Assembly (NCBI GenBank): GCA_905221615.1
Contig: CAJNDT010001011.1
Coordinates: 1-64,000, forward strand
Length of the DNA: 64,000 nucleotides
Reading direction: 5' to 3'
Source: Symbiodinium sp. CCMP2592
Lineage: Eukaryota > Sar > Dinophyceae > Suessiales > Symbiodiniaceae
Made by a program: the position numbers and the translations under genes
Part shown: positions 3,001 through 51,514 of the stretch, one piece after another
How positions within the stretch are numbered: position 1 is the stretch's first letter
How the letters are laid out: each line of letters opens with the position of its first letter
The notes under the pieces: model-generated
What the model saw: only the letters and a program-made list of their open reading frames with translations
The model's database searches: none
What the model was told of the DNA's origin: nothing

Positions 3001-3154
3001 GTGCTAAATTGCCGATATATGTTCGGCTTTACATTGGCTGTTCATAGATCACAGGCACGATTTAAGTGGCTCCGTAACTTAGGTTGAAGAGATCGTAGGT
3101 CTATTTATATTTGTTCTGTCGAATGTGAAGAACCAAACATACTTATCGTTGGGG
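1..3154. repeat. Left arm of giant inverted repeat
   Basis: This arm is the exact reverse complement of 4605-7758: position n pairs with position 7759-n. Every open frame in this arm has a mirror frame with an identical translation in the other arm, so I see no difference between them. The window starts inside the arm, so the repeat may extend further left. The arm contains no frame that resembles a known protein. It has two 46 bp direct repeats near 1373 and 1465, runs of C and G near 1275 and 1800, a short TG run near 2517, and a CAT/CATT-rich stretch near 1640-1680. Confidence 0.95.
1373..1510. repeat. Two 46 bp direct repeats, period 92
   Basis: Copies at 1373-1418 and 1465-1510 share the core GAGGATCGCGTCCCAAA followed by a GTGAC-rich tail. 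A partial third copy (ACTGTCACGAGG) begins near 1561. The same pair occurs inverted at 6249-6386 in the other arm. Confidence 0.75.
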
Positions 3155-4604: not shown

Positions 4605-7600
4605 CCCCAACGATAAGTATGTTTGGTTCTTCACATTCGACAGAACAAATATAAATAGACCTACGATCTCTTCAACCTAAGTTACGGAGCCACTTAAATC
4701 GTGCCTGTGATCTATGAACAGCCAATGTAAAGCCGAACATATATCGGCAATTTAGCACCGGAATTTAAGGTCAGGTTTAGACTAGTTGCAGATTGGTTTA
4801 CACGCCTAGCCGCCTCTTCATGCTAACCATTCGCACAGTAGGGCTCCCTCCGTGCACGGCTCCGGGCCATTCCCTTGCAATCCAGGCGTTGTCAAAAAAT
4901 AATCGCAGCTCAATTTTTTGACGTTCAGTTCAGCAGGAGCCAGACAATGAATGAATGAAGCTTTTGAAGGCCTAGAACCTGAACAGGATGTGCAGAACCT
5001 GTGCAGGATGTGCATTGGGACTCTTTCAGAACATGGGTAGATACTGCTGCTGTTGGCGGTCAAGAGATGTTGAAACTGTGATCTCTCATCGACCTGTCCC
5101 AATCCACGACCTTCTCGCTTCTCTTGCACCGTTTCTGGAGATCAGTTCCGATCTCTAGACTATGAGCGAGCTGAAAAGTTGGAAGCCGCACTGGAAGCAC
5201 CAAAATCTACAACCCTGAAGACACACGACACACACACACACACCTCTCCAATTGCGGACCTATTGCCAAGTTCTGCCAATGTCAGAAACTTGACCCTGAG
5301 CTGGCAACCTAGACTGAACGTGGCCACTCACTCTCACTCGCCCTGTGAAACCTACCTTCCGCACTCGGCCGGGTTTGGCGGAAGACAACGGGGAGGAGTG
5401 ACTGCAACTGGTACCGCTATGGTTATGGCGCACTGTGCTCGCAGTGATTTCTAGACTCTAGACGATTGCGAACTTAATTGGCTCTTGCTATCATTCCCAC
5501 ATTGCCCGGGGAGCCACTCGGCCAGGACTAGCTGCACCGCATCGTTGCCATCGAACGTCGCGAGGGCCTGGCAACACGCAGCCATACTTTGGATGCTTAG
5601 TGTTGAGATGTCTGGAACAAGTTCTGCACCGTACTGGGAGTCTTGAGTTTTTGCCTTGATTCAATTTCGCTTCCCCAAGGGACAGAGACGGCGGGTGTTC
5701 CTGGCACATCCCTCCCGCTGTCCCCCATATCACCATCTCACCCCTTCCAGCCCCCCAGCTCGCACAAAGTGCTTGTAGCAGTAGCTAGCAGTCGGAGCAG
5801 CTGATACATCTGTGAATGTACCCTTCTCTTTGCTTGTTTTCGATGGGTTTGCTCTTTCTTTCTGTATTTCGAGGGGTCAGAAGGGCATCTATATGTGATC
5901 CCGGTTCGGCCGGCCCGCCCCCCCCTCGACGCAATGGTCCCCCCCGTTGGTGTGGTGTGGTGGTGGGGTGGGTCTGCTTGGGGTGGTTACCCCCCCTCGC
6001 CGTGGCATGGTGTGGGTTCGGGTTTCCTTGCGGTGGTTCCCCGGCGTTTTTGGTTCGCTTCGGGTGTTTGGTATACTCATCCCTATGATGATAATGATGC
6101 CGATGAACACCAACATCATCATAAACTCAAACATCTTAAAGTTTCCTCCTTGGTTGGTCGGCGGGTGGCCTGTCAGGGAACCCGGCCCTCGTGACAGTTG
6201 CCTTGTTTAAGACCCTCATGTTGGAGTCGTCTTTCGTGGGAAGTGTCCACAGTCACAAGGATCTGGCGTGTTTGGGACGCGATCCTCGTGACAGTTGACG
6301 GTTGGCGGCCTCACGTGTGAATCGTGTCGGAAAAACTTGTACTGTCACACGGACCGGGCGTCTTTGGGACGCGATCCTCGTGCCAGATGACGGTTCTGAG
6401 GCCTGCATGTGCAAAAAGTGTGAGCAGTCACAGAGATTCGGCTTGGGGAGTGGGTGGGTGGGGGTACCATTGGGGGGGGTCGGCGAACCGAGAACCGGGA
6501 TCATATGTCCTCTGCCCTCGTGTCGACGAGCTTCTCTGCCGCTGACATCGGGAAATGTAAATTTTGCTCAACAGAGATGCTGAGAGCACGCAGGCTACAC
6601 GCTTGACCACACACGAGGTGTGCCTCCGTCTGGGCTGGGGCCGTACCCCTACCGCCACAGAAAGCAATCATCTCTGCCTGCAGGCTTTTCTTTATTACAC
6701 GGTCGCTGTTCATTCTTTCGTTATCACTTTCCATCCTTTCAGCGTGAGTTTCCTTTATTGGGACAGAAGGGCGCAGGATTCCATGCTCCCTTGCCATTTG
6801 TGCCTCCAGCAACAAAGAGAAGTGGGCCATTGCAGGGTGATCTCCCTGATCGTACAGACTTGACCGTCTAACGGCTAGTGCAATAACGAGCGTGACCAGG
6901 AACCCTGTGGCCACCGCAACTTGCCCCTCTCACCGGACGCAAGGTGTTGAAAACAGCGGATCTCAATTACATCAGCTTTCCCATGCTGCAGCCAATTTTA
7001 GGGGCAAGTTTGTCTTTAGAGCTTCCCGAATCAGTCGCAGCTGGCGCTCATCCGTTCCGCCACTTTCGGAAATGTGTGTTCTTTCGGACAATTTTTTCTC
7101 CTTCTTTTCCAGCATCTGATGTATGTTTCACAGTTTTGCATTTTACAGGACAAGCAACAAGAAGTTCTCCCCGTTCTACCAGACCCCATCCGATCAGCTT
7201 GCACGGGGATGATGCCAGCAGCGATCTACCACAAACATCAGCACTGCGCCTGCAACATCCCCGGGTCAGAAGGAACCGCATGCGACATCAAAGGGGTGTC
7301 GCGTTTCAAGCTTTCAAGGCACTGGGCTATGAAGACTGGATCGGACTCGAATTGTGCCTCGTGACGCCTTTAGACTACCAGGCACCCAAGATACTTGGAT
7401 TGTGTTTCAGGGCTGGGGGAGTCAGGGTTCAGCACATGGCTGGAATTTGACGAGAGAGATCAGTCTGCCTATTTTGTCCAATGCTTGCACCGTCTGCAAG
7501 GATCAAGCTGCACGCGGAGTAACAAAACGTGATTTTTCGAAGGCGATGTCGTTGTTCGGGGATCGATTAAGGTTGGCCTCTGCATTGCCTGCACAAGTAC

Positions 7601-7758
7601 CGGGCACCAGGAGCATCAGAGCATCAGCATAAGCTGGGACTGGTTGCTCTGGCGATGCCTTCTGTATCGACACCCTTTCAAACCCTGCCGAGGCCCCGAA
7701 GCCCGCAGCCCCGCAGGAGTCGCTCTCACTTTCTGGACTGATCTTGCGGTGAGCTTTG
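4605..7758. repeat. Right arm of giant inverted repeat
   Basis: Reverse complement of 1-3154. The inner boundary is sharp: pairing stops at 3154/4605, where one side continues with GG and the other with GA. The outer limit cannot be seen because the partner arm is cut by the window start. No gene was recognised in it. Confidence 0.95.
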
Positions 7759-11894: not shown

Positions 11895-12677
11895 ATGGCC
11901 ACCCGCAACGATCTCATTGCTCTCGCCCACCGGCACCTTAGTGATGTGGAACTCAGACCCTTTCTGCTATACGCTGAGGCGCTTGACACTGCAATCACTG
12001 GACAGGTCATTGTGGATCTTCCTCGACCGATCGGTGCCCTGGACGACACGGCTCCGCCCGCGGAGCAGCTGGCCTGGCACACTCTGAGTGAAGAGCGGGG
12101 CTCAGTTTGGGCAGCAGCACGGTCTGTTGTCCAACTCCTGCGGTGGGACACCGATCCACGGGCTTTTGCCAACGGGCGCTCCTTCACACTGGGACTCTTT
12201 GCCAAAGGCGGTCTACGAGGCCTGACGCGCTCCACGCAGTACCATGCAAATGTCTGTCGACTCTTGAACCACATGGTGAGTGATGTGCTTCCACTGCACG
12301 AGTGGACCAGCCTGACCTTGACCTTGGACGACATGTGTGAGCCGTATGTGGACAGGGGCAACCGTGAAGGCCGCAGCCTGCTCGTGGGACTTTCCAACCA
12401 TGATCAAGGTGGGATCTGGATCGCCAGTCAGGATGGCGGCGGCTTTGCGGAGGTGGGGGACACCATCTATGCTGGGGATGTCTTCCAGACGAGTGCCAAG
12501 GCGGTCACCTTTGACGCCAAGCGCTGCCTACATTCTACATGTAACTGGACCGGAGGCAACCGCATTGTGATGATCGCTTACTGTGTAGCGCACTTTGCAG
12601 CCCTCCCTGCGAACCTTAGGTCCTTAGGTAAACGCCTTCGTGCTTTGGGGTTTGTCGTTCCGACGGCCACGGCCTAG
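11895..12677 (+). CDS. Diverged 2OG/Fe(II) dioxygenase-like protein (YxD variant)
   Basis: Intact 260-residue ORF starting at ATG 11895. Residues about 96-250 align by eye with the domain found in both retrotransposons of this window. Shared features are a TLGLF start, a WTSL motif (about 137-140), the strand pair with GGIW (172-175), and the C-terminal H213...W218...R223 block followed by a hydrophobic strand. In the retrotransposon copies the iron-binding motif is HVD or HLD. Here the equivalent is YVD (Y151, D153), so one metal ligand of the HxD...H triad is replaced, while H213 and the 2OG-binding-type arginine R223 remain. It may be a catalytically altered or inactive relative, or a decaying element fragment. 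A short upstream frame at 11766-11864 ends in a stop and could be debris of the same unit. No reverse transcriptase lies nearby. The homology is my inference from motif order, spacing and flanking strands. Confidence 0.6.
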   Translation: MATRNDLIALAHRHLSDVELRPFLLYAEALDTAITGQVIVDLPRPIGALDDTAPPAEQLAWHTLSEERGSVWAAARSVVQLLRWDTDPRAFANGRSFTLGLFAKGGLRGLTRSTQYHANVCRLLNHMVSDVLPLHEWTSLTLTLDDMCEPYVDRGNREGRSLLVGLSNHDQGGIWIASQDGGGFAEVGDTIYAGDVFQTSAKAVTFDAKRCLHSTCNWTGGNRIVMIAYCVAHFAALPANLRSLGKRLRALGFVVPTATA

Positions 12678-12905
12678 GCCTGTGTCCTGGTTACCTCGGC
12701 TGTTTGATAGGGTTCCCTTGCCTTAGGCATGCACCCTAATGTAGGTTTTGCGGCGCTTTCGCGTCCAGTGGTCGAGCACACTTCCGCTCGATAGTCTGCC
12801 ACATGTGTGTCTTGAAAGACGGGAGGGGGCCGTCTTTTGCCTTCTGCTCCAGAAGTGAGATCAGGTGTGTAGCTTGAGCAAGCAGTCGCAGCTATCTTTG
12901 CAAAC

Positions 12906-13682
12906 ATGCATGAGTCGTGTCACTGCACCTTCTGCCTTGTCTCTCACTGCACTGCACTGCACTGCCATCCCTCGTTGTGCCCAGGCCACATGGCCACAGC
13001 TGGCGGCAGAGGCGACGGAGCGACTCGGTTCCAACCTCTCTCTAGCGCGCCTGGGAACGAGGGCCTTCGTCTGTGCAGCACACCGGGATGCATTTTCCGG
13101 TATCCCTCGCACCATCGGCACTGCTGTGCTGGATGTCGACAAAGAGCGGGCCACACCAGTCGCTGCACTAGACTGCAGAGAGCCCAGCGCCTAGTCGCGC
13201 AGGATGCCACGGCGAATTTCAGTAATCACGTTTTTGTTTGTGGTACTTCGGGCTGTGGTAGGCTAGTTCGGGGATTGCACCTGCACTGCTGCTCGACCTG
13301 TCGTGGATCTTTGGGAGCCCAACATACGGTTCGATGCCATCGCCGAGCTCCACACCCTACGACTGCACCAGTGACCGGACAGTCTGGACAGAGCCTCGCA
13401 GCCACTGCACCCAGCCTTTCTTCTGCAGCTTCTACTGATGCAACAATGCTTTCGGCTACCTCCTCAGTGACGACTCGTACCACCGAGGGTTTTGACTTGC
13501 TTTCTGGAGCAGCTGAAGCTCCTGATGCTGGGGATCGAAGTGAGGGACAGACTGCTTGCACGGCGTTGCTCGACAACGTCATGGAACAGTCTGCCGGGGC
13601 GGATGCTGTATATAGCGCTGTACAGGAGACACGAGGTGAACGCTCTCTTCTTCATGTACCTGATCTGAACACAATGGACTAG
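12906..13682 (+). CDS. Cys/His-rich tandem zinc-binding-type protein
   Basis: 258-residue ORF, ATG at 12906, on the same strand and 228 bp after the dioxygenase-like ORF. Two modules repeat in the middle (about residues 55-95 and 108-150), each with the order C-x3-GC, then HxHCC-x2-C, then H-x2-RC: for instance CSTPGC...HHRHCCAGC and CGTSGC...HLHCCSTC. The N-terminus is also Cys/His-rich. The spacing suggests zinc coordination, by analogy with small Cys-rich repeats common in dinoflagellate proteins. The C-terminal third is Ser/Thr/Ala-rich and probably disordered. The ORF could be a second coding part of the same element or gene. Function is unknown. Confidence 0.5.
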   Translation: MHESCHCTFCLVSHCTALHCHPSLCPGHMATAGGRGDGATRFQPLSSAPGNEGLRLCSTPGCIFRYPSHHRHCCAGCRQRAGHTSRCTRLQRAQRLVAQDATANFSNHVFVCGTSGCGRLVRGLHLHCCSTCRGSLGAQHTVRCHRRAPHPTTAPVTGQSGQSLAATAPSLSSAASTDATMLSATSSVTTRTTEGFDLLSGAAEAPDAGDRSEGQTACTALLDNVMEQSAGADAVYSAVQETRGERSLLHVPDLNTMD

Positions 13683-17873: not shown

Positions 17874-20800
17874 TCAGCAGTGCCAGCCTGTTGCATGGTA
17901 CCAGAATTGCGAGAACATCTCTTTATCAAACATCTTCTTGGCCGCATCTGCCGCTTGCATGTCAAGCTCTTGGTCGAGCAGCTCCATGAGCCTGTTGACA
18001 TCCGACGGAGACTTCCTCGGCACCGGACTGCCGCATGAGAAGCGTGCGAATGCACCGCTTCAAACTGCTGCCTGCATGCCAGCACCTAGCTCGCGCGGGC
18101 CTTTTTGCTTGCATCACCCAGAGCCGCGTGCTGCGGTAAAGGTGGTTAACTCGCATCTGAAACTACACGCTATGCAGCACCGAAGGTCACAGGCACATGT
18201 CAACAGGTCAGGCAAGCTACTGCACTTTCACACCGGTGTAACCCTCTCTCTGACCTGTTGACTTGACTGTACTTGCCCGTTTCTTAAGTGCTTTCTCGTG
18301 AAACAACAATCCGGCGCCGAGCTGTTCTCTCAAGTCAGAGCCCCTATGAGCCTTCGTCAAACCGTCCGCAAGCTGACACCTAGTAGGAACCCATAACAGT
18401 CTCGCCTTACCCGGTTGCTCATGCTGACTCCTTGTTGTCAGCAACTGGCGAAGCAGCACGGCGTGCACAATATTTCCTTTCTCCCCGACGTGTTGGCCAT
18501 CTTTGTGAATAGTATCGTAGATACTCTTACAGTCGGTGACCATGGTAAGCGGAACCAGTTGCTGCCATCCATCATCTTCGACAGCGGACATCACTCTTGA
18601 CCCATACTTCAATTCACACAACAGGACTTGGGCAAATCGCGACATGTTGTGTCCCATGATAGCAGCATGGGTCTCGGCAGCGAACGAGGACTCAATGACG
18701 CGACGATTGGTAGCGCTCTTCCAGTCGATGAGATTCAGATGAACTCTACCCTCTTGCTCAATGGCTCCTTTCTTCACGAAACCAATACAGGCACCCTTTT
18801 GAGAATAGATCAATCGTTTCTCAGTATGACTCTGAAGTATATCTTCGCTCTGTTTCTCGTCAATCTCAACGCCGACGCTACTATAGAGACCCGCGTCATG
18901 ATAAGTCACAAGCTCAGCATCATGCCCCAATGGCCTGAAGAGGATTTCAGTCCTATGTCGTGACACCTCCCGAACGGCCTTGTTGGCCCTGATCAGATCG
19001 GAGACTCGAAGATCCGATATCCTCTTCTGGAGCTGGTTGCATTCGAAAGCAATGTCCGGCCTCGACTGAACTGCTAGCCACTGCAGACTTCCCGTGATTG
19101 ACCTGTAATCAGTCACCTCAGTCGAATTGGCCCGGGCATCTGGCTCACGAAGTCGCGACGGATCAATCTTCGTTGTCTGAAGGCGACCATCAATGAAAGC
19201 ATTCTGAGCTAATGTGACACACGTTTCACCATCTTTCTCGATGACCTTGATCTCTTTACCACAGTACGTCACTCCACTCTTCTGCTCACTGACCTTCATC
19301 CAGGTCCCGAAAGGAAAACGATCCGTCAACTTCTTTTCAACCTGCCTCCCAGCCTCGCCTCCATTGTGGCAAAACATCACATCGTCAACGTGCACCACCA
19401 TCAACCCTTGAAGATTTCCTTGCTGGTCTCGCAAAGCAAACGTCGCGGGATCAGTCTTGCACTTACTGAACCCCATCTCTTCTTCAAGGATCCTGGCGAG
19501 CTCGTTGTACCAAGCTCGTGGAGCGTCCGGTCTGCCGTAGACAGGTTTGAGTAGTTTAAGAATTTGCCCTGGATTCATTCCGCTCAAACCCTGTTTAGGC
19601 TGTCTCATGTACATGTCTGGTTTCCCTGACAGAGGAGCTCCCTGAAGAAAAGCGTTCGAGATGTCACCGATGAACCACTCACCTGTCCAGCCTAGGCTCG
19701 TAACCATGTGAAGGAACACCATGGTAGATACTCGCTCAATGGTGGGGCTGTCAACCTGGACTTGTCCTGTCCGGCTGTCTGGACACAAATGTCCCTGCAA
19801 GCACAGCCGAGCCTTTGCTTTGACAGGTAACTCTTTTCCGCTAGCGTCAAGCAACCCGGCATTCTTGTTGCGAAACACATAACGGCTGGGAAGGATCCTA
19901 TCCGGTCTCTCATTCTCAATGCGCTGACTCTCTTCAAGACTCAATATTTCGCAACTCTCGTAGTCCTGCCACGATTTCCATTCCTTCTCTTCTGCCTGTC
20001 TGTACAGCTCTCGATCTTTTTCAGGAATGTTGGCATACGGAATCTCCTTCTCAAGCATGCGCTTGAGTTTCGTCTTACTCTGGCTACCCGCATTCGCGAC
20101 ATGTACCTGTTGAGGAGGGGACTGCTGTTTCCTTCGCTTGACGCTCAGTGGCACGTCGTCAAGAACCACATCCTTTCGAGTGCGGTTTCGGAAGATCGTG
20201 ATCAGGCCAGCTACAGGAGCCTGAGGAATGAACTGATGTTGATCCTCGAGCTCCATCCATTTCACTTCATTCTCCACACACTCCCAATGGCCATTCACAT
20301 GAACCCATGACGTGCGAAACGGAAAACGCTCACCTGGATACCTTGGCTCGGGAGTCCTGAACGCCCAAGCCTTGTATGAAACCAACACCGGACTGCCGCT
20401 GCTATCAACGTGCCATCCAACCTGTCCTGACATCTGGGCATGTTCGTCACTCAAACCATCGGTGTCCAGGCTTCTCTCATCTGTCATGAGTTCGTCTGCA
20501 ACCTCCTGACACAATGGCTGCTGTTCAAGGTCCATAGGCTCTCCCTCGGGATCTGGTTGGCCGACAAGGTCCTCATACGTAGCCTCTTTAGGAACCTTTC
20601 TAAACAAAGCAATGGCCTTCTGAACCTCAGGATTCCCGTAGTGCTTTTCGTCGCCAACGGCTTCCCGAAGATGTTCTCCCGCCACCAGAAAACACCTTCC
20701 GCCTACCGCGACCCAAGCATTGCCATCCTGAAGCCCAACCACATAACCCGGACCGACCCACTTACTCTGACTGTCACCTTTCTTACTCTTCTCAGCTCGC

Positions 20801-23800
20801 CAGAAGAACACCATCTGTCCTATTTTCGGGATTGGCAACCTACGAGTCCTATTGTGGGCAGTTCGGAGAAGCATCTGTCTCGCCTGGCTTCGAACAAACT
20901 CCATCTTGGCATGGTACCGAAACCTCATTCGGCTGGCAACATCACTGCCGGCCTCTCCTACCGAAGGATGATATGCCGTAGGATTGCCCTGATGATACAT
21001 CTCACCGAAGACTCGAGGTTCCCTTCCGAACACCAAAGCGACTGGCGCCCAGCCATGCTCTCTCACAAGAGAATTCTTGGCACACGCAACTTCCCTGGCA
21101 AGCTTCCGCATGTCTTCTCGACCAACAGTAGCCGTCTGCCTGATAGTGGCAAACAGCATGTCCTTTATGGTGGAATTGTGCCGTTCTATCTTGCCGGCCT
21201 GGAAATGCGCGGTGCCAGCTATCGAAACGAGACTGCTGCCGGACTGTGAGACTTTCGTCCAGAAATCAGGTCCAATGAAGCCTCCTTCAAGATCGGTAGT
21301 CACACGCGAAGGAACACCTGCCCACTTGCTCCAGCCCCTATCGAAAGCTCGATGAAGTTCTAAAGGAGAATGATCCCGCAACATTTCCAAAACATGGTAT
21401 GACGTGGCTCGATCAAGAATGGACAGAAACCAGAAATTCTCCTTGTTGGCATCCCTGATGCACAGACAATCCAACTGGACCTCGTCTCCAAACTCCAGCT
21501 GGCATGGGGGCATATTCGTGGTGCGGTGTGTACTGGGACGCCTAGCATGAGCACATGTAACACACTTCATCCAATTGACCGCTTCGACAACTTCTTTGCG
21601 TGCGCCACCTAACTTCAGGAATCTCGCGAGGTCTTCTTTGCTAGGGTGTCCCAAGTTACAATGAGCTTTGATCAGCCCGTGGCGTATCGCCTCACTGAGG
21701 CGCCTTCCAGCTGGAACCTCAAACGTGATCCCACCCGAAGCAAGCTTCGGACGCACTCTCTGATTAGGCTCCTGAGATCCGCGTGCCTGTTCTTCCCCAG
21801 CCGCTTCCGCCTGTTCACTTCTAGGCTCCTGCGGATCGGGGATCATCTCTTCATCACCGTCATCATCGCTCATCTCATCCCCTTGCGCATAGACGACGTT
21901 CCACTGTTTGAGAGCACGCAGAATATTTTTCTCATTCCATCTGAGCTCAGACACGCCCTCCTCGTCATGATGAACCTTTCTACGGATCCTGGCTGAGAGG
22001 CTTCGGAGCATCCGTCGAACCCTTCCAGGCTCGGCGCTCTTCAAATAATGTGTGTATCCTCGACATACGGCCTGCGCAAATCTCCGACGCCACACATCAA
22101 CCTGACGGTCCGAACTACGACATGTGCTCATATCACACTTCCCGATTTCCTCAGCTATGGGTTCGCACGTGGTGGCCCACTTCTTCACACTGCCGTCATG
22201 ATGATCGCATTGCACACACTGAACTTTCGGATGCCTACATATGACTTCAAGAAAGTGTTGAGCACTACCGTCGCATCGCACCGGCATGTCCATGAGAACA
22301 TGATCTCCTCGCCCCACCTGTCCATCAATCAAGCGATGTATAAACTGATACCTCTGTTCCAAGTCGTGTCTCTTCTGTCTCTCACGTCGCCTGTCTTGTG
22401 AACTACTGCATTGCGACCGACACGACCGACCGACGGTGGGACAACAATCATTCAATATGACGAGCCGAGGACAGACGCCTGGTCAACCCAGTTCATTACA
22501 GCTTCCCGGTTGTCCGCTTGGGCCAGGTCACCCGCTAAGTGCTCACACCGTTGTGACCGCCAACCCCAACGAGAGAAAGATTGCTGGAAATGAGTCTCGG
22601 TCATACCGACCTCAACCACATCGGGCCGAATCCGGGAAGCATATGGTACCGCCTCCGCCGCTGCACCGGCCAGGGCAGCGGTTGCGATGAACACCCCAGC
22701 CACTATGGCCCGAGCGTTTCCCAGGAGCCTCTTAGCCACGCCTTTCTTCAACCGACGCCTACGCTCAACACCTTCATGAATCCTATCGCGAACCTCATGA
22801 GGGCTTAGAGGCTCCCGCGGAGAATCTGCTACGTCATCACTCGCAGCAGGCTGAAGCTCAGCTGGCATCGGCATATGCTTCACTTCTCGTCGGAACTGTT
22901 TCCATGTCCCTTGCCCTTCACATTGCCGGCCTTCTTCTTCCGCATCTCCATCACGAGCTCCACTTCCTCTTCCGTGAGATTCGTGTTCACCAGCTGGTTG
23001 GGCTCGTCGTTGTCGGAAGACTCGATGTCCACGGGGCCCGTCTTGTGCCAAGAGTGATCGGACGAAGCTGTCGCGCCGCCCTGTGGTGGGCTCCGGCGAT
23101 TCTTGGGCCTCTCCTTCGGCAGGAAGTTCTTCTCCTCCTTGATCTTGACCATCGCAGCCGCCCTCAACTCCTTCTGCACCTCCTTGGTCGGACGATTGTC
23201 GTAGGTGTACGGCAACGTGGTGCGACATGCTGGGAATCGCCTGCATCCCCAAAAGTGCTCGTGAGTCAGACGATTGTTGCGTTGCACCATCGGTATCCCG
23301 CACACGGTGCAGAGGGGACCCGGATCTGCCATCTCGAGGTCCCGATCGAGATTCAAAGCAGCATTGGCCTCCACCGCCCACATTTCGAGCTCCATGATGA
23401 GCTGGCTCCGGGACCAGCGGCCCCAGTGATTGTCGTGGTTTCGACCCACGTCTTCCACGACATGGCTCGCGTAGACCTCCTTGAGAGTCTCGAGGTCCAT
23501 CTTGCGCCACCCTGCTGGGAGGCATGATCCCTTCCGGGGCGGCTTGACCACCGCCCACAATTCCTTCAACCGATCGAGGGTGTGAGCCCTCAGTTCTTCC
23601 GGCTTCACCTTGCACCGGCCGGACACTGCGATGACATAGTCCTCCTTCCTCTTCGGGGCAAGGGTCGACATGTTGAGACCCGCACTCGGCCCTCACAGAG
23701 TACTCAATCCCCGGACTTGTCGATCTTGAAAGCTTCAGCTGCGGAGTTGCATTGAGCTCATCACACACATCCACATCATCAGCATCTCTAAGCGGCTCTG

Positions 23801-26800
23801 GGTGATTTGATGACATGTATGTGTGACCCTGCTGCTCCCCAAAGGTCCTGGTCACTTCTTTCCTCGGAAGAGGAAACTTCATCTTCTTCATTGCTTTTCT
23901 CATCTGGTCATCGACCTGGGCCGCCGTTCGCACTGAGTAACACGACAAACACCACCTCTCGCCCTTCCAATCGTGGGTTGCATGTGGAACATGAGGATCA
24001 AACTGAAGTGGTCGACGATAAGTGTCACAAAGCCGGCCACGTATCCATTCACCCTGATTCCCCTGCTTCCACGTGCACTCGGAGTCGCTAACCTCTTCAT
24101 CCGCAACCCACAGCTGGCCTCCTTCAAAATCACCGAAGGTGACCGTCGTGGCGAGGGCCTGCTTATCATTGTGACGATCCACATGAACTTCAGTCGAAAC
24201 ATTCTTCATCAAGGTGAAAGATGACCACTCTCCATCTGCATGCGATCTCATGAACATGTTCACATAGCGAACAACATTCGGATACCGCAATGTTCTCTTA
24301 GTCACCCCGGTCCATGCTCCGTGACTGTATATCCCGGCAACCCAAGCTTCATATCCCTTGCCTTTGCCGCCGTTGATGGCGCGATGCCGCTTCGAGGTGT
24401 GGAAAGGGAGCATCCTGACCAATCGTGTTATGGCTTCAAAGGAATAGTCTTGGGCATGATAAAGTTTGCGGGCTTCATCTTCACACCGTTGAACATTCTG
24501 ATATGTGGCTCGAACCTTGTCGTGGGGCCCGTCGTTCTCCACTGGATTGCCCGCCATGCATACCTGATCACTGCCCGCTTCACCTATGACGATCTCGTGG
24601 TCATCCTCTACCAGTTGTCGTGGAGGGACCTCCCACCTGGTTCTAGAAGGCCTTGTGTTGATCTGGAAGCCGCAGAGCCCAGCTTTCGTCTCCCTGAGTG
24701 GAACTTCCGCTTTCATCTCTCGAAACAGGATCTTACCCTTTTCCAAGTCCATGACCATCCCTAGGCCCTTCAGAGTCGACTTGCTGAGCAACAATGGGAC
24801 TTCCTGGTCGACGACACTCACTCTCACCCGTGCTGTCTTAGAAGCTCCCGCCAGGTGTAACGGCATAATCACCGCATATGATGACATAATCCTGGGTCCT
24901 CCCCCGAATCGGAAAGGCCTGGCCTCGTCGACGATATGCACGTCTTCCCCGTGCTTCCGGAGGAGCTTCAAATGTCGCTGCATCCATTTGATCCCGGCCA
25001 CCGTCCTGGCGCAACATGTGTCGCTGAGAGCAAGATTATCCCGATCAGGTTCCTGTCCAGTCTGCATAACAACGTTAGTGCACACCTCCTGTGGATCGTC
25101 ATGATGCTCGTCATCGGTCTCGCCGGTGGTGGCGAGGTATATGGCCGCCAGTTCATCACCTTCATCGGAGTCGCTTAACTCCTCGGCGACCACGGCGAGC
25201 ACAGGCTTGTCTTTCTTGGCATCCCGTTTGGAACTGTCCTGTCCACTGGTCCGGTAAGGACAGGCGGCATCACTGTGCCAGTGGCCGTAGACGGTAAGGC
25301 CGTGCGCCTTACACGCACTGCACGGCATTTTGGCTTTCATGCTGCGGATCCTCTCTTCACGTGCCTCACTGGTTTCACCTCGTGAGAACCCGCGTGCCCG
25401 TTCAATTTCGGCACGTTTCCGAGCTGCCTGCGTGAGAAGCACTTCCAATTCGCCTTCAAGCTCATCGGGATGTGCCTCATCGTGATCTTCGGCTTCTCCG
25501 TGGTCCGACTCGTGGTTTTCCTCGGTCGTGGCATTCACTTGTCTCGCTCCACCCTTTGTCTTCCACTGTCTATACGGAGTCCTTGTGTGGCTCGTCGAGG
25601 ATTCCTCGTCCCGCTTCACCTTCGGGACGATCGCCATCAGGGCTTTCCTCAATCGACTGTAATCATATTCACCGCCGGCAGCCGAAATCACTTGCTTCCT
25701 CAACTCGTCTGACAAGCTTGCCTTCTCCAAGAACCAATAGGCCTTGTTCAAGCCATCGATCTTCGCACCAATCTCCTCCAGGCGCTTCAAGTGGGTGCGA
25801 AACTCCATGTCGTAGGCAATAAACTCTTGGCCCGATGTCCTCTTGAAGCCACGGTAGAACTCGGTCAGCGTCGAGAAGACTCTCAAGTGCTCGAGGGGCT
25901 CCAACTCCTGGTACAGGTGACTTAGAAGCCGCTTAACTCCATCCTCATGCTTGAGCTCCTGTAGATCGATGCCCTCGGTCGCGGTCCAAGCATGGCCGGT
26001 CAGCCTCTCCATCAGCTTCTGAGCACGATAGCTGGGGTCAATCCCTGTGGCACTCTCAAACAAGCGAACTCTGCGTTCATAATCTCGCATCGGGGTTTTG
26101 CCATCATACTCAGGTACATGATCTTTGCCCGTCTTCGGGGAGTTCTTAGCCTGACTCCCTGCATCGCTTGCTTCCTTCACTTCTTCTGAAACATCTGCTG
26201 AGAACTCCTCAGTAACCGTTGTGGACTGCATTGAAGCCCTCCGCCCGCCTTGATCTGCAGATTGGTTCGCGCTGGCGTTCCATCCCGACCAGTAGGTGCG
26301 GTCGCTGTCATTCCATCGATAGCCTGGCCAGTTGGACCTCCTACCATAGTAGCCTTCATCCCAGCTACTCGCAGGCTGTCTCTCCCATTGGCCTTGCCAC
26401 CAAGCATTCTCCCAAGCGCTACTGCTCCACTGAGGGCCTGCCGACCCATACTGCTCTGCTGAAGTTCGGGCATCCCAAGATGTCCACGGACGAGCGCCTC
26501 CCCATCCGTCACTAGCTTGCGCCCCATCCCGAGGAGCACCATCGCCGCCGTTGCCATCCACCTCCTGAGGAGGCGTCGCTGTGCCGCCTGACATCGCTTA
26601 GCCCTGCTCCGCACAACCAATGCGAATGCACCGCTTCAAACTGCTGCCTGCATGCCAGCACCTAGCTCGCGCGGGCCTTTTTGCTTGCATCACCCAGAGC
26701 CGCGTGCTGCGGTAAAGGTGGTTAACTCGCATCTGAAACTACACGCTATGCAGCACCGAAGGTCACAGGCACATGTCAACAGGTCAGGCAAGCTACTGCA

Positions 26801-29800
26801 CTTTCACAAAGCGAACATTCAAACCGGCTACGAAGATTCTTTGAGACAAGCTTCGGTGCAATGTTGTGCTTCTCCCACGGATCAGCATGCAGATCAAAGA
26901 GCTGCGGCGGCCAAGCAGCTGAGCCCGGCATGAGTGGGGCGTATGCAATCAACTTGAGGTGTCCTTGGCGGATCATGAAGCTGCCTGTAGCGGAAAACAC
27001 CTCGGGATGCCATCCCAAACGGACAGGTTTTGGTGTTTTGATGCAAGCGGAAATCTTCAACAGGACTTTGCATTCTTGAAATTGAGCCACAGAGTGGTAC
27101 TCGGCCACAACGAAATCTGCCTTCTTCTTCCGATGTTCTTTAGCCACGGGCAGGAGGGACTCCTGGCTTCGCACATCTGAAAACGTAGACAATGTAGTTT
27201 ACCTGCAGTGCCAGCTTACTGCTTGTAGCCGGGACGCCCCCACCGGCTGAATCGATGACTCGACGCCAGCCATATCCAACACAGTTGGAAAGATATCCTC
27301 AAATTATGATGCATGCGACCGTCCCCTATGAGTGCGTAAATTAGGTATCTCAACCCCATCGCCAGGACCGTCGTACACGCAAAGCCAAGGTTTCTGCGAA
27401 GGCAATGCAAAGACTGTTGGGCTTCCAGCTTTCAAGCAGCTGAGCTTACCCCTCATTTTCTCAGCGATCTTCGATAATCTTGTAACTGCTGATGCCTGTC
27501 AGACCGTGCCATTGACTATTTCCGATGGGTCCGTTGACAACAGCTAACTGTGTGTCTATTTGGGCAAAAACTGACTGTCTTCCGAAGATCGTCTCGGTGA
27601 GTCTTTCTGTGCTCACACTGAAAAACCAACACTCAGGCACAAGCACTGAATCGTCAAACTCTCACCCAAACTCTGACCATAAAAACCCCAAAACCAACCT
27701 TCAAATCTACAGGAGTCAGTCGACTCTCGATTCCTGTTCCTAAACCGTAAAGCTCCCAAATGCTGCAGCCCTAAAGCCCGTTCAAGTGATTTGAGTGTCT
27801 GATCTCCTCCGAACCAACATGGATCGATTTCCGAAAGCTCACGTGTAAGACACTGCCAAGGCTCATACAGTGAGGTAAGATCCTGGATGACCTGCCCCTT
27901 TGCAATTCCTGGACCCGCAATCATGAGTGGCACCCGTGCTGCTGCCTCGAAAAAGGAATTCCTTGGCGGCCAGCGTGCTCCGATCACCGTGGCATGCAAC
28001 CAGGAGCTAAAACAGCGCAACTTTTTCGAAACGGTGTATCAACCACTGACCACCACGAGCAAGGACCTGGTTCCATGATTGAATTACTGTAGCTCCAGCA
28101 TCACGACCGAGGTTCGTCCGGCTTCAGCAGATCTCATGTACTTGTGGTTCAAGGATCGCAGTCGTTTTTTCCACTACTTTCGAAGCTGCCGAGTATGTCC
28201 GCTTTTGCCCAACTAAAAGCCAAACTCCAAAACCTCCTTTCCGCGCTTGGGATTAAAATTTGCACTCAACTTCGACCAAGACTTCATCCACTTTTCTCAG
28301 AGTCTTAGAGGCCAGGATGAGTCACACACTTCATTGCGCCCGCAGCCGAAGTCTTGCTTTTGCTGCCAATGCGATGACAAGTGCCCGTTAGCAGACCCTT
28401 CTCCAGCTGATGTTCGGGGCCCGTGCACTGCAGCAACTGAGTGTGTTCTGAGAAAATGCTTCGGCATGCTTCTGAGCTTTTGCGTCGTTTGGTTTGTTTC
28501 GGTTGGCTCGTCAATCAGCATAAGCCCATAGCATGAGGCTCGCCTGACATCGACTGGACTAGCCACTTGAAACATGAGGGCTGGCATCATCGTTCGAATC
28601 TTTGTCAAAGGCACTTGCCCAGCATGCGATTCTCCGTTGCGTGCTCGCCATGGTCTCCAAGCATTATGACCTGATGGCATGCTCAGTCATGCTGCCATCC
28701 GCCGGCTAAAAGCACGAACAGGAGGATTTGCCTGCCAAGAAGCGTAAGCATCATCAAAGCTGCTGCTGCGTCGGAAGGCGTCAATGATGCTTCCAAGGAG
28801 CTGATCTGCCTCTATGCACATGGAGAAGTAAACCTTTCGGAGGTGCGCCACCTGCAAAATGAACACACCTGCGACCCGACTGCTTATATCGCTATCGCAG
28901 CCGCATCAGGCCTTTTCAGGTGAAGCCTCATCCATGCGCCAAAGCTTTTTGGCTTTGGAGGTATATTCATCTGCCGGGTGCACCTCCATCTTGGGAGGCC
29001 ACTTGGGCAAGCTGTAGTTCCCCAGGTCAGGCACCTCAAATCGGCGGCCCTGCTCCACAGCTTCTCCTAGACAGTAGCCTGACTGCCCGGCAAAGAAAAC
29101 CTTCATGCACTTTAGCACCTTTTTCCTAATTACTTCTTCATTACATCACATCACGACAAGCTGGTTGCGAGTCAGGCGCCTGAGCCAGGTACGTCGCATT
29201 GGTCCAGAAGGGACTGTGAGGCACTAGGAGTGAACAATAGAGAAATTGGGGTGTGGAGGACTTGAAGAGACCGGCATCGAGGAGCTCTGTGCAGCTTCGG
29301 CTAGCTGCATAGTCAAGGGGCCCCGTGGCCGGCCTTTGCAGATCATCCTCTGTCGGGAGGCCTGGTATGTTTTGGGTGGGTGTAAGGCCAAGGGCCCTGG
29401 TCCATTCCATGGCTGCCTTCGGAAGCCGCTTCCCACCCCAAGGCCAAGCGTCGATCTTGCCCGAGTAGCGCTGAAGCCCTGCGCCTGCGTGCATCTTGCC
29501 CCAGAGAGTGACATTGTATCCCGATGTAGCTAACGCATCAACGAAAGTGCCCTTCACCTTCTGCTCAAGGGCAAATCTGCGACACGTCTCCCCCGAAAAG
29601 GTCTTGGCACAGTGCGAATCGATGTCGTCCAGGCTACCATTCACGCTGGCAATTCCAACCCAGTTGTCCCAAACCTGAAAAGGGCCAAAGGTGATAGAAA
29701 CGTTATTCAGTGTGCCCGTGCTTGGCTCTGCGGCAGTCCGCGCCTTGATCTGCGAGGGGTAGCGCCCGACCAACATTGAAGATCGGGCGGGAACACACTG

Positions 29801-33300: not shown

Positions 33301-34063
33301 ACGCCCCTCATCTCGCGATTCCGCCTATCATATACTTTCAACACGGCAGACCAGTGAGGTTCGTCACATATAAAAAAAGTCTATGCGTATATGAGCAACT
33401 CTGCCTGCATAACACGATTGGTTTAAAGCTGCGGCGTTTCACCGCCCAATCCCAACTGATAAAAGCACACTATGGATGTATTATGATCTTGTGCATCGGC
33501 TGATTGCACATCCATGCCTGGTCGGCTGCAATGGAATTTACACGTGTCCTTTGAAACCTTCCCTCTTCCAGACTTCCAGTGGCCGGGCCTTGAAAATGTC
33601 ATTTTGGAGTACAAACTCAGCACGCGGAACGCTCTTCCAGTGGCCGGACTTGGAAATTGCTTGCTTGGAGTACAAACTCGGTACGCGGAACCCTCTTCCG
33701 GTGGCGGGGCCTTGATACTGCTCTTTTGGAGTACAAACTGAGTACGCGGAACGCTCTTCCAGTGGCCGGGCTTGGAAACTGCTCTTTTGAAGTACAAACT
33801 GAGTACGCGGAACGCTCCTCCGGCGGCTGGCCCTTGTGAAATTATAAATATAAATATATATATATATATATATATAAATATAAATATAAATATAAATATA
33901 AATATGCACAAGATCATAATACATCCATAGTGTGCTTTTATCAGTTGGGATTGGGCGGTGAAACGCCGCAGCTTTAAACCAATCGTGTTATGTAGGCAGA
34001 CTTGCTCATATACGCATAGACATTCAGCTACTTGTTACATATACATTTGTGCGCAAGTATGTG

Positions 34064-34106
<43 letters not shown>

Positions 34107-34786
34107 ATGCGTATGTGTGTGTGTGTGTGCGTGTGTGTATGTGTGTGTGTATGTGTGTATGTGTCGATATGCAAGTAATATATACATATATATACATATA
34201 TGTATATCACAGTCTACAGATACGCTTCTGATGCTTCTGCTCTACAGGCATGCGCTGCGAAGCTTGGTTGCTTGCTTCCTTCCTCGATTCCTTCCTTGCT
34301 TCCTTCTTTGCCTGCTAACTTCTTTGCTTGCTTGCTTGCTTGCTTGCCTTTGCTTCCTTCCTTCCTTCCTTGCTTCCATTCTTGCTTGCTTACTTGCTTG
34401 CCTTTGCTTCCTTCCTTCCTTCCTTGCTTGCTGGCTTCCTCGCTTCCTCGCTTCCGTGCTTGCTTCCTCGCTTCCTCGGTTCCTCGCTTCCTTGCCTGCT
34501 TGCTTGCTTGCTTGCCTTTGCTTCCTTCCTTACTTGCTTCCTTTCTTGCTTGCTTGCTTGCCTTTGCTTCCTTCCTTCCTTCCTTGCTTCCTTTCTTGCT
34601 TGCTTGCTTGCTTGCCTTTGCTTCCTTTCTTCCTTGCTTGCTTCTTTTCTTGCGCGCTTCCTTTCTTGCTTGCTTGCTTGCCTTTCCTTGCTTGCTTCCT
34701 TGCTTGCTTGCTTGCTTGCTGCCCTCCTTGCTTGCTTGCTTGCTTGCTTGCTTGCTACCTTGCTTGCTTCCTTGCTTCCTTGCTTC

Positions 34787-34818
<32 letters not shown>

Positions 34819-36611
34819 GGCAGGAGACCGGAAAAAAAATACCAGAAAAAACGGTAAAAAAATACCGAAAAAATAGGGCCACCACGAAAACTGAGCTAAA
34901 GGCTTCATTTGGATGCTGCCGTCAATCGCACTATTGATGACAAAACCGTTCGAGCTCATCAGAACCTCCATAACGGCTACGAACATCGACTGGACTTCAA
35001 GTGCGGCATTTATCCCATCCAATGCCCCTCTTGTGATGGTGGCGCGCACCGAGATTCTCTCCAAGATGTCTACGAAGATCTCATTCTTCTTGTTCTTGGC
35101 ATCATGCGTCGGACCGACCTGAAATCACGAAGGCGAAGGCCCACGGACAGTATGCAAATGACGAGGCCTGAACCCTGTCCCTGCCCTTTGAGGTCCGCGC
35201 TGGCCTGTGGACGGCATTGCTGGGCACCGTGCGTGGATTCCACTGGGGCAGATTGAGGCCAAGCCTGAGAGCCAATAGGGTATCTGAAATTCTGCCGTCG
35301 AAGAACAGAGAGCTCAAGGGTCTGGTGCTCTTTGGGCAGCACTGGCTTCATCTTTGAAGCCCAGTTATGCGGCTACGAGTATCAAGGGATTCCGACGACC
35401 TGATAAGGCCAAGCTTTCTTTTATTGCTTCATGCAACTGGTGGTTAGGCACCTGGCGTGCGTTTGCGCTTAACAGACCGCAAAACTTCATCGAATCGAGG
35501 GGAATGGGCTGAAGTTGGGTGTCGCAGCCCCGTTAGTCGTGAGAAGGGCAGGCTCGGCAGCAGAGACCAACGCCGCAACGGCCGAGGGCTCTGCTTTGGC
35601 GCCTCTATGACGACTGCCTCATTATGGATGCAGGACCTGGCGAGGCAGAGTGAGCTGCACTTCTGATCTCATGTTCCGTTCCTGTGCCTTCCTTACTTGA
35701 TGCTGTTTGCTGTCCTGCTCCCCTGCTCATGGGGTTTCGAGGCTGATCCAACTCCTAGATGGCGTGCATGCAATCTGCCGGAAATGCTTCAGGTGCTCCG
35801 TGTTCGTCGTCTGCGGATAGCCTGTGCAAGGACGCACCGACTCGCTGCGTTCCCGGTCATTTGAACATCGAAATTGCCAATGTCTTCAGTGCTGCTGTTG
35901 GCTGCGGACTGCACTACAGATGTTCTCTCAGGTACCGACCGAAATCCACCATCTCATCGAGAAGCTCATACACGAGCACAAAGTTTTTCCTGTATTTCGA
36001 CAACTTTGCCCGAAACTTTTCTCACGACATCTCGTGGGCGGCTCTGCAGACTCGCCCGTCCTTATGCTCTCTTCGTTGAGCATCCCACAAAAGTCCTTAA
36101 AGACCTGGCACTTCGAGTCCCTGGTGCAGCCGATCCTACCCGGTTCGCCAGTCCGCAAGGGCCTTCGCCATCTTCGTGAGGAGCTCCACCACGGCAGCCG
36201 GGGAGATGTTATGACATGTAGTTGCCACGAAGTACCTGAAAGAAAATCGAATGCACACCTTGTAGCCAAGCTTCCCAACTCGCTCCACATTTCATGAACC
36301 AAAGACGATGCAGCAGTGGGATGCAATCCATTCTTCTTGATGAAGACATAGGTGACCTTGTGCCATGATGTCTAATCGCTAGTTCTTTGGCATCTGGACT
36401 CTCTTATCTAAGCTGCAGGCACCATCCAAGTTGAAGATTGGAGGAGCGTCGCCGTGCCAGAATTTTACCTGCTCAATCTGGACCCTCTTCTGCTCCCTAG
36501 AATCTTCCAGGGAGAGCCTTTCTGAAGAAAATCTCCGCAGTGCCCTTCACGACATCACCGCGGAAGTCTCGCGTGATGATGGTGTCGCCGCGCAGGGACA
36601 GAATGTAAAAC
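30368..36611 (-). CDS. AP4M1: Adaptor-complex mu subunit, AP-4-like (AP4M)
   Basis: Clathrin-adaptor-type mu chain that recognises tyrosine-based sorting signals on trans-Golgi membranes. It was rebuilt from small exons, including 36611-36518 (FYILSLRGDTIITRDFRGD...FFRK), 36468-36421 (VKFWHGDAPPIFNLDG), 36356-36325 (VTYVFIKKNGL), 36235-36157 (YFVATTCHNISPAAVVELL), 36104-36061 and 35989-35940 (NFVLVYELLDEMVDFG), 35821-35779 (YPQTTNTEHLKHF), 35636-35595, about 35247-35185, 35104-35050 (NEIFVDILERIS), 34965-34904 (GFVINSAIDGSIQMK), 32610-32565 (SYLMGNPELKLALNE), about 32310-32263 (VILDDCNFHECVDL), about 32149-32100 (SFYPPDGEF), 32018-31976 (VMNYRITGDFRVPF), about 31880-31821 and 31662-31597, then 30690-30600 (LLWNIKKFQGGTE) and 30530-30368 (TYEIPMYNVSNLQ). 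Donors are GT, GC or GA. FFRKVKFW and the IPMYN..LQ ending favour AP-4. The start exon and the final 30 or so residues were not found. Confidence 0.88.
33130..33370. repeat. Pair of diverged ~70 bp direct repeats
   Basis: Segments at about 33130-33200 and 33299-33370 share ACGCCCCTCAT, CGATTCCG, CTATCATATAC and ACACGGCA in the same order, separated by a TATA-rich microsatellite. Confidence 0.7.
33379..33496 (+). repeat. 118 bp inverted repeat, left copy
   Basis: Reverse complement of 33904-34021 with two mismatches. The inner ends face a 407 bp loop that contains the 61 bp tandem array. Confidence 0.93.
33573..33835. repeat. 61 bp tandem repeat, four full units
   Basis: Units start at 33573, 33634, 33695, 33756 and a partial fifth at 33817. 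Each begins CTTCCAGTGGCCGGG or close and ends ACGCGGAACGCT. The 61 bp length is not a multiple of three, so the array shifts frame each unit and is unlikely to encode protein. Confidence 0.9.
33904..34021 (-). repeat. 118 bp inverted repeat, right copy
   Basis: Pairs with 33379-33496; 116 of 118 positions complementary by eye. Confidence 0.93.
34040..34205. repeat. TA and TG dinucleotide microsatellite
   Basis: Alternating TA runs followed by TG runs with interruptions. Similar AT-rich runs occur at 32990-33030, 33240-33290 and 33840-33905. Confidence 0.9.
34262..34822. repeat. CTTG/CT TCC microsatellite tract
   Basis: About 560 bp of imperfect CTTG, CTTC and CCTT units. It gives long spurious Leu/Ala/Cys-rich plus frames and Lys/Ser/Gln-rich minus frames (34214-34885), which are not genes. 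Confidence 0.93.
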
Positions 36612-38208: not shown

Positions 38209-38658
38209 CTAGCTTAGATCCCATTCTGGCTCGACGGATGCCTCCATGTCCTCATCCTCGTCGTCTGCAGCTGGTGGCAAGGGCTCTGTCTTGCTTTTCT
38301 TGAGGGCGGGTGCAGCTGCAGGTGGCAAGGGCTCAGGCTTGAGGAACGCTTGTTGTTGATGAATCTGGGATTCTTTTCCGGATCGCATCCAGCAAATCAC
38401 CAACTCCACGTGCAAGTTGACGCTCTGCCTCCGGGACGATCTGCGCCTTGGCTGCTTTATGCCATCCAGCTTTTCGCCCAGATTGGAAAAGCTGCGCGGT
38501 CTCTGCATCATACGAGCTGTTTGGTGCTCCACACTTCGAGCAGAACCATGCGCTTGCATCCATCCACGTCGCATCGGGACCTGCTTGGCGAGACCACGTC
38601 GAGCAGTTCCAAAGCGACAGCTGCCTTGCTTTTTGGAAAGCCTATGTTGCCTGCACAA
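38209..38658 (-). pseudogene. C-terminal tail of transposase-like unit, frame-disrupted
   Basis: Between the DDE domain and the next ORF the coding signal switches frame. One frame (38333-38563) carries a CxxC pair and basic helix (WFCSKCGAPNSSY, LLDAIRKRIPDSS). Another (ending 38209) carries a Pro/Ala/Glu-rich acidic tail with two LPPAA repeats, ending EWDLS. Either small introns or indels separate them. I see no stop-free single frame through the whole segment. Confidence 0.4.
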
Positions 38659-39368
38659 GACCGCTTTGACTGGAAGACTTCTGCAAAACGGTCTTCAAGC
38701 ACTTTGTGCCGCTGCAAACACAGTCCTGGCACAAATCCGCAATGTGCCCATCCGGCAAGGCGGTTCGGGGCAGACAAAGCCTCCGCAACTATGCGGCGGA
38801 TGCCTGCGCAAGCCTCCCAGACATTCATGTCACGGCCTCTCCATTCCGCCCACGATTTCTTGAATGCCGACCAACGCCTCCCCATTAGGGAATGGGGAAG
38901 CTGGTCTAACGGGCATAAAGCCTTGGTGGAATAAGCCGGTAATACGTACGCATGTGCATTGTAGCGAGAAAGCAGGAGTGCTACTGCCACGCTGATGTGC
39001 GGAGCGGTCCCCCCGCCGGAATCCATCAGCAGTAGAAACGGTTTGTCGCCATGCTTTTGGCGCATGGGGCGCAAACAGCACTGCTCCAGCATGTCAGGGA
39101 AGCTCTCGGCGGTTTGTGAGCCACTCTCATGTGACCAAAAGAGCGCTTCGGGCCAGATCTTGCCGAAATCCTCGTGGACGTTGCGGAATGGTACGATAAC
39201 AACCACTGGCGAAACCGCATCGTCAGAGCCTCCTACAGGCATGAAACTCGTGACCGAAATATGCTGGAAGGTCGTCGCCGCTGCAGCCGTAGCAGCCGTA
39301 CATCGGCCCTCCCTCGTCGTGATGCCACGAACGATCTGGTCGGCCCTGCAAGGGACAACCATGGACAA
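38508..39368 (-). CDS. DDE-superfamily (pogo/Tigger-like) transposase-derived protein
   Basis: 286-codon frame. Residues 110-175 show the strand-catalytic Asp FLLLMDSGGG (D116), a hydrophobic strand, then LPAYSTKALCPLDQ (D155) and a downstream basic helix (GRRWSAFKKSW). This matches the DDE_1 fold of pogo-type transposases, where D-x(about 38)-D and the lP..T..lCPLD motif are typical. The first catalytic Asp is not evident in this frame, so the N-terminal part may lie in another exon (39448-39666 is a candidate, with a helical helix-turn-helix-like stretch). No terminal inverted repeats were found. It could be a decaying element or a domesticated gene. Confidence 0.6.
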   Translation of the reverse strand: MSMVVPCRADQIVRGITTREGRCTAATAAAATTFQHISVTSFMPVGGSDDAVSPVVVIVPFRNVHEDFGKIWPEALFWSHESGSQTAESFPDMLEQCCLRPMRQKHGDKPFLLLMDSGGGTAPHISVAVALLLSRYNAHAYVLPAYSTKALCPLDQLPHSLMGRRWSAFKKSWAEWRGRDMNVWEACAGIRRIVAEALSAPNRLAGWAHCGFVPGLCLQRHKVLEDRFAEVFQSKRSCAGNIGFPKSKAAVALELLDVVSPSRSRCDVDGCKRMVLLEVWSTKQLV

Positions 39369-39447
39369 ATATGCTGTTTCGGGTTAATTAAGGGTTCTGT
39401 TTGGAGAACGTACTATGTACTGAGCCCACCTCGCAGAAAAACCCTTT

Positions 39448-40164: not shown

Positions 40165-40169
40165 TCGCA
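40165..40169. repeat. Target site duplication, element B (left)
   Basis: TCGCA, repeated at 51515-51519. Confidence 0.85.
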
Positions 40170-40320
40170 AGTCCGAAAATCATGAGCCCTATCAGCACGC
40201 AAACGAAAGGAGGTCTGACTGACATGTTGGGCTGAACCTCAATGGGCCTTTTCTAACTCTGACTGCTGAGCTCACAGTGCTGCCGGGAACTGTACATGTC
40301 TTGTGAGGTACCCTGCTAGT
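40170..40320 (-). repeat. 3' LTR of element B
   Basis: 151 bp, identical to 51364-51514 except for T/C at 40301. It contains an ATG (40225) that opens MSVRPPFVCVLIGLMIF in both LTR copies. Confidence 0.9.
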
Positions 40321-40363
40321 CGGGTGTGCTCGTCAGGTTACTGTCGTTGTTTGATTGAACTCT

Positions 40364-43142: not shown

Positions 43143-43158
43143 TTGCCCCGGCTCTACT

Positions 43159-47363: not shown

Positions 47364-47424
47364 GGCAGCAACTAGCGTGGGTCAGGGGACTGAAACTTAG
47401 TCTCACGGGGTATGCGATGGCGGA

Positions 47425-50010: not shown

Positions 50011-50015
50011 GCGTC

Positions 50016-50903: not shown

Positions 50904-50927
50904 GCTGCGTCGTGCTCTGCTGCGATG

Positions 50928-51419: not shown

Positions 51420-51514
51420 GTTGGGCTGAACCTCAATGGGCCTTTTCTAACTCTGACTGCTGAGCTCACAGTGCTGCCGGGAACTGTACATGTCCTGTGA
51501 GGTACCCTGCTAGT
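51364..51514 (-). repeat. 5' LTR of element B
   Basis: 151 bp. Its inner edge is fixed by the adjacent primer site and its outer edge by the TCGCA duplication. It is unusually short for an 11 kb element. Confidence 0.9.

Follow-up and report, generated by a model that had tools for sequence, protein, structure and literature searches.

Two copia-type elements carry a dioxygenase-like domain

We analysed positions 1 to 64,000 (hereafter the window) of contig CAJNDT010001011.1 from the dinoflagellate Symbiodinium sp. CCMP2592. Its minus strand holds two long terminal repeat (LTR) retrotransposons of Ty1/copia type, elements A and B, each encoding a domain with the HxD...H...R residues of 2-oxoglutarate/Fe(II) (2OG/Fe(II)) dioxygenases. 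An earlier note, made from the sequence, had proposed such a retrotransposon-encoded domain and suggested that it was of the TET/JBP type; the minus-strand location, the ends of the elements, a third homologue (C) and the genome-wide spread of the domain go beyond it. The features of element A are as follows.

18045-26808, minus strand: element A, LTR to LTR, Ty1/copia type, 8764 bp, with paired LTRs and a 5-bp direct repeat
22452-26597, minus strand: a single open reading frame (ORF) of 1381 residues with gag region, protease-like region (by eye) and dioxygenase domain; codon usage supports this frame as far as about 23750
23805-24539, minus strand: dioxygenase domain A, residues 686-930, aligned to 29 other sequences
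24168-24185, minus strand: HxDxHN motif, codons of H804-V-D806-R-H808-N809
23982-23984, minus strand: codon of the distal His, H871
23955-23957, minus strand: codon of R880, the presumed 2-oxoglutarate-binding Arg
23210-23311, minus strand: topoisomerase-type zinc ribbon after the domain, in another frame (ORF 22880-23692); Zn_ribbon_Top1, E = 1.3e-5, 25.3 bits, under the cut-off of 32
18217-22482, minus strand: pol ORF with integrase (by eye), reverse transcriptase (RT; RVT_2) and RNase H (by eye)

The LTRs of A (18045-18232 and 26621-26808) were identical at 188/188 positions in a self-comparison of the window. Read in the sense direction, the LTR starts with TG and ends with CA, and the 5-bp direct repeat AAGCG stands at either flank. 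The residues named earlier for A (H804-V-D806, GDFEGGQLW, H871, W876 and R880) were all found at those places in the minus-strand product, with a spacing of nine residues from the distal His to the Arg. Pfam recognised RVT_2 in the pol product above its cut-off (E = 1.5e-13, residues 859-1065).

Codon usage along A favoured frame 0 across gag, the protease region and the dioxygenase to about 23750, then another frame, with the zinc ribbon inside it, to about 23000, then frame 0 again and finally the pol frame. The ORFs 22880-23692 (270 aa) and 22452-26597 (1381 aa), both on the minus strand, thus overlap, and codon usage changes frame twice despite the identical LTRs. Frames of both elements are given as read, with no frame correction applied. 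The features of element B are as follows.

40168-51514, minus strand: element B, LTR to LTR, Ty1/copia type, about 11.3 kb, with paired LTRs and a 5-bp direct repeat
46602-47366, minus strand: dioxygenase domain B; HLDAHN at 46995-47012, distal His at 46788-46790, Arg at 46761-46763
47425-50091, minus strand: gag/protease ORF with CCHC knuckle (zf-CCHC, 0.0083, below cut-off) and RING finger (zf-RING_2, 1.8e-7, above cut-off)
43159-46338, minus strand: ORF resembling the integrase of A (BLASTP against the pol of A, 56.6 bits, E = 3e-11), without Pfam match
40364-42490, minus strand: RT ORF (RVT_2, E = 0.018, below cut-off; BLASTP to A RT, 47.8 bits, E = 1e-8)

The LTRs of B (40168-40320 and 51362-51514) matched at 152/153 positions (99.35%) in the same self-comparison, and the element is flanked by the 5-bp direct repeat TCGCA if its LTR is shortened by 2 bases. 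Near-identical LTRs together with flanking direct repeats make both A and B look like recent LTR-to-LTR insertions. The B counterpart of the domain, given earlier as 46191-47363, is real; its residues, numbered H118, D120, H192, W197 and R201 in the earlier note, are residues 119, 121, 193, 198 and 202 of the 46602-47366 product. The coding region of B is divided among at least six overlapping frames, and the RING finger in its gag/protease ORF is unexpected for a copia-type element. For the dioxygenase ORFs of both elements, plus-strand readings of the same stretches contain many stops, while the minus strand is open.

Comparison of A, B and homologue C

Apart from the domain, A and B are clearly different, as had been noted. 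BLASTP gave 22% identity for the integrase (56.6 bits, 417 columns) and 24% for the RT (47.8 bits, 472 columns), and no match for gag or protease. The two dioxygenase domains, at 25% identity over 279 columns (97.8 bits, E = 1e-25), are the best-conserved part between the elements. Two readings fit: the domain is under stronger constraint than the rest of A and B, or it moved between lineages after these had split. As to the earlier placement of the domain between protease and integrase, motif reading, together with the BLASTP similarity of A and B for the integrase, suggests the order protease-integrase-RT; Pfam recognised neither protease nor integrase in either element, only the RT.

A third homologue stands alone elsewhere in the window.

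11895-12674, plus strand: homologue C, stand-alone ORF of 260 aa; YVDRGN replaces HxDxHN (Y151, D153, N156), with H213 and R223 kept

C matched B at 28% identity (BLASTP, E = 5e-14) and A at 25% (E = 1e-9), and has a Tyr at the place of the first iron-binding His. Beyond the two elements, no similarity to the pol of A or B was detected within the window at E <= 1e-3, and no element was recognised around C. Directly after it, at 12873-13682 on the plus strand, lies a Cys/His-rich ORF in which two C..GC...HCC..C...H...C-like patterns were seen by eye; it had no Pfam match at E <= 5.

The domain is widespread in the genome and under purifying selection

The assembly of the same organism (1.098 Gb, 5383 contigs) was searched with domain A, and 150 of 4845 first-look candidates were scored, so that counts are lower bounds. 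At least 150 relatives are present; all 150 listed fall at E <= 2.9e-31, 147/150 are free of internal stops (three contain one), and 24/150 belong to open frames 3186-3192 residues long. We aligned 30 sequences: A, B, C and 27 hand-picked, non-random relatives from the 150 (the seven best after A and 20 distributed over the remaining matches). At a median pairwise identity of 31%, the first His was present in 29/30 rows, with C the sole exception, while the Asp, the distal His and the Arg were each present in 30/30; so were the Asn three residues after the Asp of HxD and the Trp of GG.LW.

Selection was measured by the Nei-Gojobori method on pairs with pS of 0.02-0.65, which retained 18/435 non-independent pairs. 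The 12 with dS below 0.7 gave dN/dS of 0.03-0.27; six pairs with dS of 1.2-1.5 gave 0.41-0.65, values that are unreliable. The domain is under purifying selection, and loss of function by drift was rejected on the dN/dS of 0.03-0.27.

These results bear on two alternatives. A fold retained for a structural or binding role, with no catalysis, would account for C, which keeps an open frame of 260 aa without the first His. We regard this as highly unlikely, since all four catalytic-type residues persist in 29/30 sequences at the low identity given above, and C, around which no element was recognised, is the only exception. The second alternative is that the domain is a chance ORF, a chimera or a host-gene fragment in a dead element, as might be suspected from the change of coding frame after the domain in A and the split coding of B. 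A chance ORF was rejected for the domain on the homology between A and B (BLASTP E = 1e-25), and a dead chimera on LTR identity, flanking direct repeats and the genomic relatives; with purifying selection in addition, this alternative is scarcely credible.

Architecture at seven further loci

Seven hand-picked loci were inspected by searching the longest open frames of their flanks piecewise; one scan omitted the upstream pieces L039 and L041 because of their length. RVT_2 was found at 7/7 loci, six of them above the cut-off and C1757 at 0.011. The assignment to Ty1/copia rests on LTRs and 5-bp repeats in A and B and on RVT_2, which is above the cut-off in A and at 6/7 further loci and reaches E = 0.018 in B. 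At six loci (C4545, C258, C347, C5109, C175 and C569) the domain precedes the RT. At C1757, a 3187-residue frame, the order is RT, domain and then a Tpt1/KptA RNA 2'-phosphotransferase (L031:118-681; Pfam PTS_2-RNA, 9.5e-9, above cut-off). In at least one lineage, the dioxygenase thus shares one open frame with an RNA-processing enzyme as well as the RT, and the different order indicates that the module is not tied to a single position.

Family assignment by sequence and structure

A Pfam scan of the 30 aligned members at E <= 0.1 returned two families only, both of the 2OG superfamily: Tet_JBP (PF12851; 4/30, best 5.1e-4) and 2OG-FeII_Oxy_3 (2/30, best 0.005). In a second scan of 10 members at E <= 0.5, Tet_JBP was matched by two (L011, 19.8 bits; L009, 17.3 bits), and an unrelated family, DUF6087, appeared at 0.16. 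These two matches run from profile position 72 or 77 to 162 of 164, spanning the core from HxD to Arg. Before genome relatives were in hand, synthetic consensus and profile-sample queries built from A, B and C had been searched in Pfam. Tet_JBP was matched by the first consensus (E = 0.039), by 1/3 other consensuses (0.031) and by 3/6 profile samples (best 5.1e-4). None of four controls (three shuffles and one reversal) gave a match, but in a second set one of four shuffles matched an unrelated family at 0.024; an E near 0.03 is therefore by itself at chance level, and natural members are better evidence than consensus queries.

The motif itself was compared with TET2 (4nm6), which reads HRDLHNMQNGSTLVCTL, against HVDRHNDKQALATTVTF in A and HLDAHNLGQSRNITLSL in B. 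Three residues after the Asp of HxD, an Asn stands in 30/30 members here and in HRDLHN of TET2, where the Asn presumably contacts the base. PHD2 also has Asn at this position, which is thus not specific to TET/JBP. In CcTet the corresponding residue is Gly331, reported to affect base recognition (PMC12730594).

AlphaFold models of domains A and B were made without the genome relatives. When model A was searched with Foldseek and VIA-align, ALKBH3, ABH8, ABH2 and FTO headed the lists; CcTet and thymine-7-hydroxylase also appeared in these weak lists, with PHD2 and a bacterial prolyl-4-hydroxylase (P4H) at VIA-align ranks 44-45.

Several results weigh against the dioxygenase reading or its TET/JBP form. 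The best Tet_JBP score, 19.8 bits for L011, lies well under the gathering cut-off of 34.9 bits, and 26/30 members gave no Tet_JBP match at E <= 0.1. Individually, A, B and C match no 2OG model in Pfam and, by sequence, no solved dioxygenase in the Protein Data Bank (PDB); the 30-row profile likewise found no dioxygenase among PDB sequences. The AlphaFold models are poor (pLDDT of 39 for A and 37 for B), no Foldseek match of model A reached E 0.001, and the fold search with model B returned 21 matches, all at E >= 2.2 and none a dioxygenase. The missing Pfam match in A, B and C carries little weight, because Pfam misses the integrases of both elements too; A alone gave a single chance-level row, PaaX_C at 0.16.

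Searches of other collections added nothing to the assignment. No relatives of the domain were found in PHROGs, NCBIfam or prokaryote genomes; one phage search yielded none and another gave two rows at E = 1, both from records of a single phage, and 7/8 scans of viral contigs with domain and RT queries led nowhere.

With HxD...H...R in 30 sequences, purifying selection, Pfam matches at E <= 0.1 to 2OG families only and the weak fold lists of model A, the proposal of a retrotransposon-encoded 2OG/Fe(II) dioxygenase-like domain is supported: the domain appears to be a conserved dioxygenase module of copia-type elements, and its superfamily assignment is well supported. The TET/JBP part of the proposal stands less firmly. 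It has the best curated match (5.1e-4, 19.8 bits), but this is under the cut-off and without any 2OG match for A, B or C; TET/JBP is the favoured, not proven, best lead for the family.

Other features of the window

A roughly 3.2-kb inverted repeat (1-3176 and 4584-7758) is 99.8% identical across a 1.4-kb spacer. At 38508-39383 on the minus strand, an ORF resembles a DDE-type transposase by eye, with no Pfam match at E <= 5. Long low-complexity open frames at 33931-34937 on the plus strand run across the internally repetitive stretch 34262-34818. Rfam and tRNA searches of the window led nowhere, and no match to the spliced-leader relic pattern was seen in it.

Discussion

The best explanation, and in our judgement the probable one, is that the domain is an active double-stranded-beta-helix 2OG/Fe(II) dioxygenase that forms a standard module of many Ty1/copia-type families of this genome and acts on nucleic acid. 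The homology, the conserved ligands, the purifying selection and the placement within elements are observed; fold, catalysis, substrate and benefit we infer. H804, D806 and H871 are the predicted iron ligands, and R880 would bind 2-oxoglutarate. Made within the polyprotein, the domain would be released beside RT and integrase and packaged with them, so that its mode of synthesis would place it in the particle. The substrate is likely to be nucleic acid, given the family matches and the zinc-ribbon and Tpt1 neighbours. Our guess at the order of substrates would be DNA base oxidation first, RNA demethylation second and protein hydroxylation third. In the first case, the enzyme might oxidise a base methyl group on the cDNA of the element itself or on the chromatin of newly inserted copies. 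A new copy could thereby evade silencing based on methylation or hydroxymethyluracil, or come to be accepted by the host.

Protein hydroxylation, by a P4H- or PHD-like enzyme acting on Gag, the polyprotein or a host protein, is quite improbable. Its merits are the two 2OG-FeII_Oxy_3 matches, the ranks of PHD2 and P4H in the VIA-align list, and PHD2 itself, which likewise has an HxDxxN motif and a His-to-Arg spacing of nine. Tet_JBP, however, is matched by more members and with a better score, nucleic-acid enzymes head the structural lists, and the zinc-ribbon and Tpt1 neighbours point away from a protein substrate.

An AlkB-like demethylase, stripping methyl groups from the RNA or cDNA of the element (or acting on alkylated DNA), would agree with the enzymes that head the lists of model A and with the joining of the domain to Tpt1/KptA in one lineage. 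AlkB has 17 residues from the distal His to the first Arg, however, against nine here; AlkB (PF13532) was matched by none of the 30 members at E <= 0.1, against four for Tet_JBP; and CcTet and thymine-7-hydroxylase are in the structural lists as well. We think this alternative rather unlikely, even with a published precedent in orchids. Ty3/gypsy elements of Phalaenopsis carry an ORF for an AlkB-type 2OG-dependent dioxygenase, a functional m6A RNA demethylase according to the title of the report (PMC9289625), and are the nearest precedent for the elements described here. Both are LTR retrotransposons that code for a 2OG/Fe(II) dioxygenase, a predicted one in our case, whose metal and 2OG ligands are conserved. 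The orchid elements are of the gypsy type, with the dioxygenase in a separate ORF2 and assigned to pfam13532 (AlkB), whereas here it lies inside a copia polyprotein and, in some members, matches Tet_JBP below the cut-off. The orchid acquisition is described as recent and as detected in two Phalaenopsis genomes, in contrast to the diverged copies in many families found here (PMC9289625).

The predicted dioxygenase resembles TET/JBP enzymes (TET2, NgTet1, CcTet, JBP1) in having HxDxHN as in TET2, and the Tet_JBP profile spans the core of some members. It differs in scoring below the cut-off, and a TET-type Cys-rich part was not noticed, though no search was aimed at it. Fungal DNA transposons (Kyakuja, Zisupton and others) are reported to carry a TET/JBP dioxygenase that, as may be the case here, has been transferred between element types; the carriers in that survey of fungi are DNA transposons and some Helitrons, unlike the retrotransposons of the window (PMC12730594). 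LINE and DIRS elements of Symbiodinium carry DNA methyltransferases and so provide another retrotransposon-borne DNA-modifying enzyme, although the enzyme and the element classes differ, and the words dioxygenase, TET and JBP do not occur in the main text of that report (PMC5890265). Base-modifying enzymes on mobile elements are thus already known; among the literature matches listed, there was no report of a 2OG dioxygenase in copia elements, whether from dinoflagellates or from other protists, nor of a candidate TET/JBP-like dioxygenase long retained in copia-type polyproteins.

Dinoflagellate DNA has been reported to contain abundant hydroxymethyluracil (PMC11071213). A tentative and rather doubtful possibility is that the copia-type elements, with at least 150 copies of the domain, encode a TET/JBP-type base hydroxylase that writes hydroxymethyluracil or oxidises 5-methylcytosine on cDNA or at insertion sites, and that one lineage pairs it with a Tpt1-type RNA phosphotransferase; the base-modified DNA of the host would then be partly made or removed by retrotransposons. 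Whether retrotransposons supply or erase oxidised bases becomes a testable question, and the answer bears on the long-standing puzzle of hydroxymethyluracil-rich dinoflagellate DNA.

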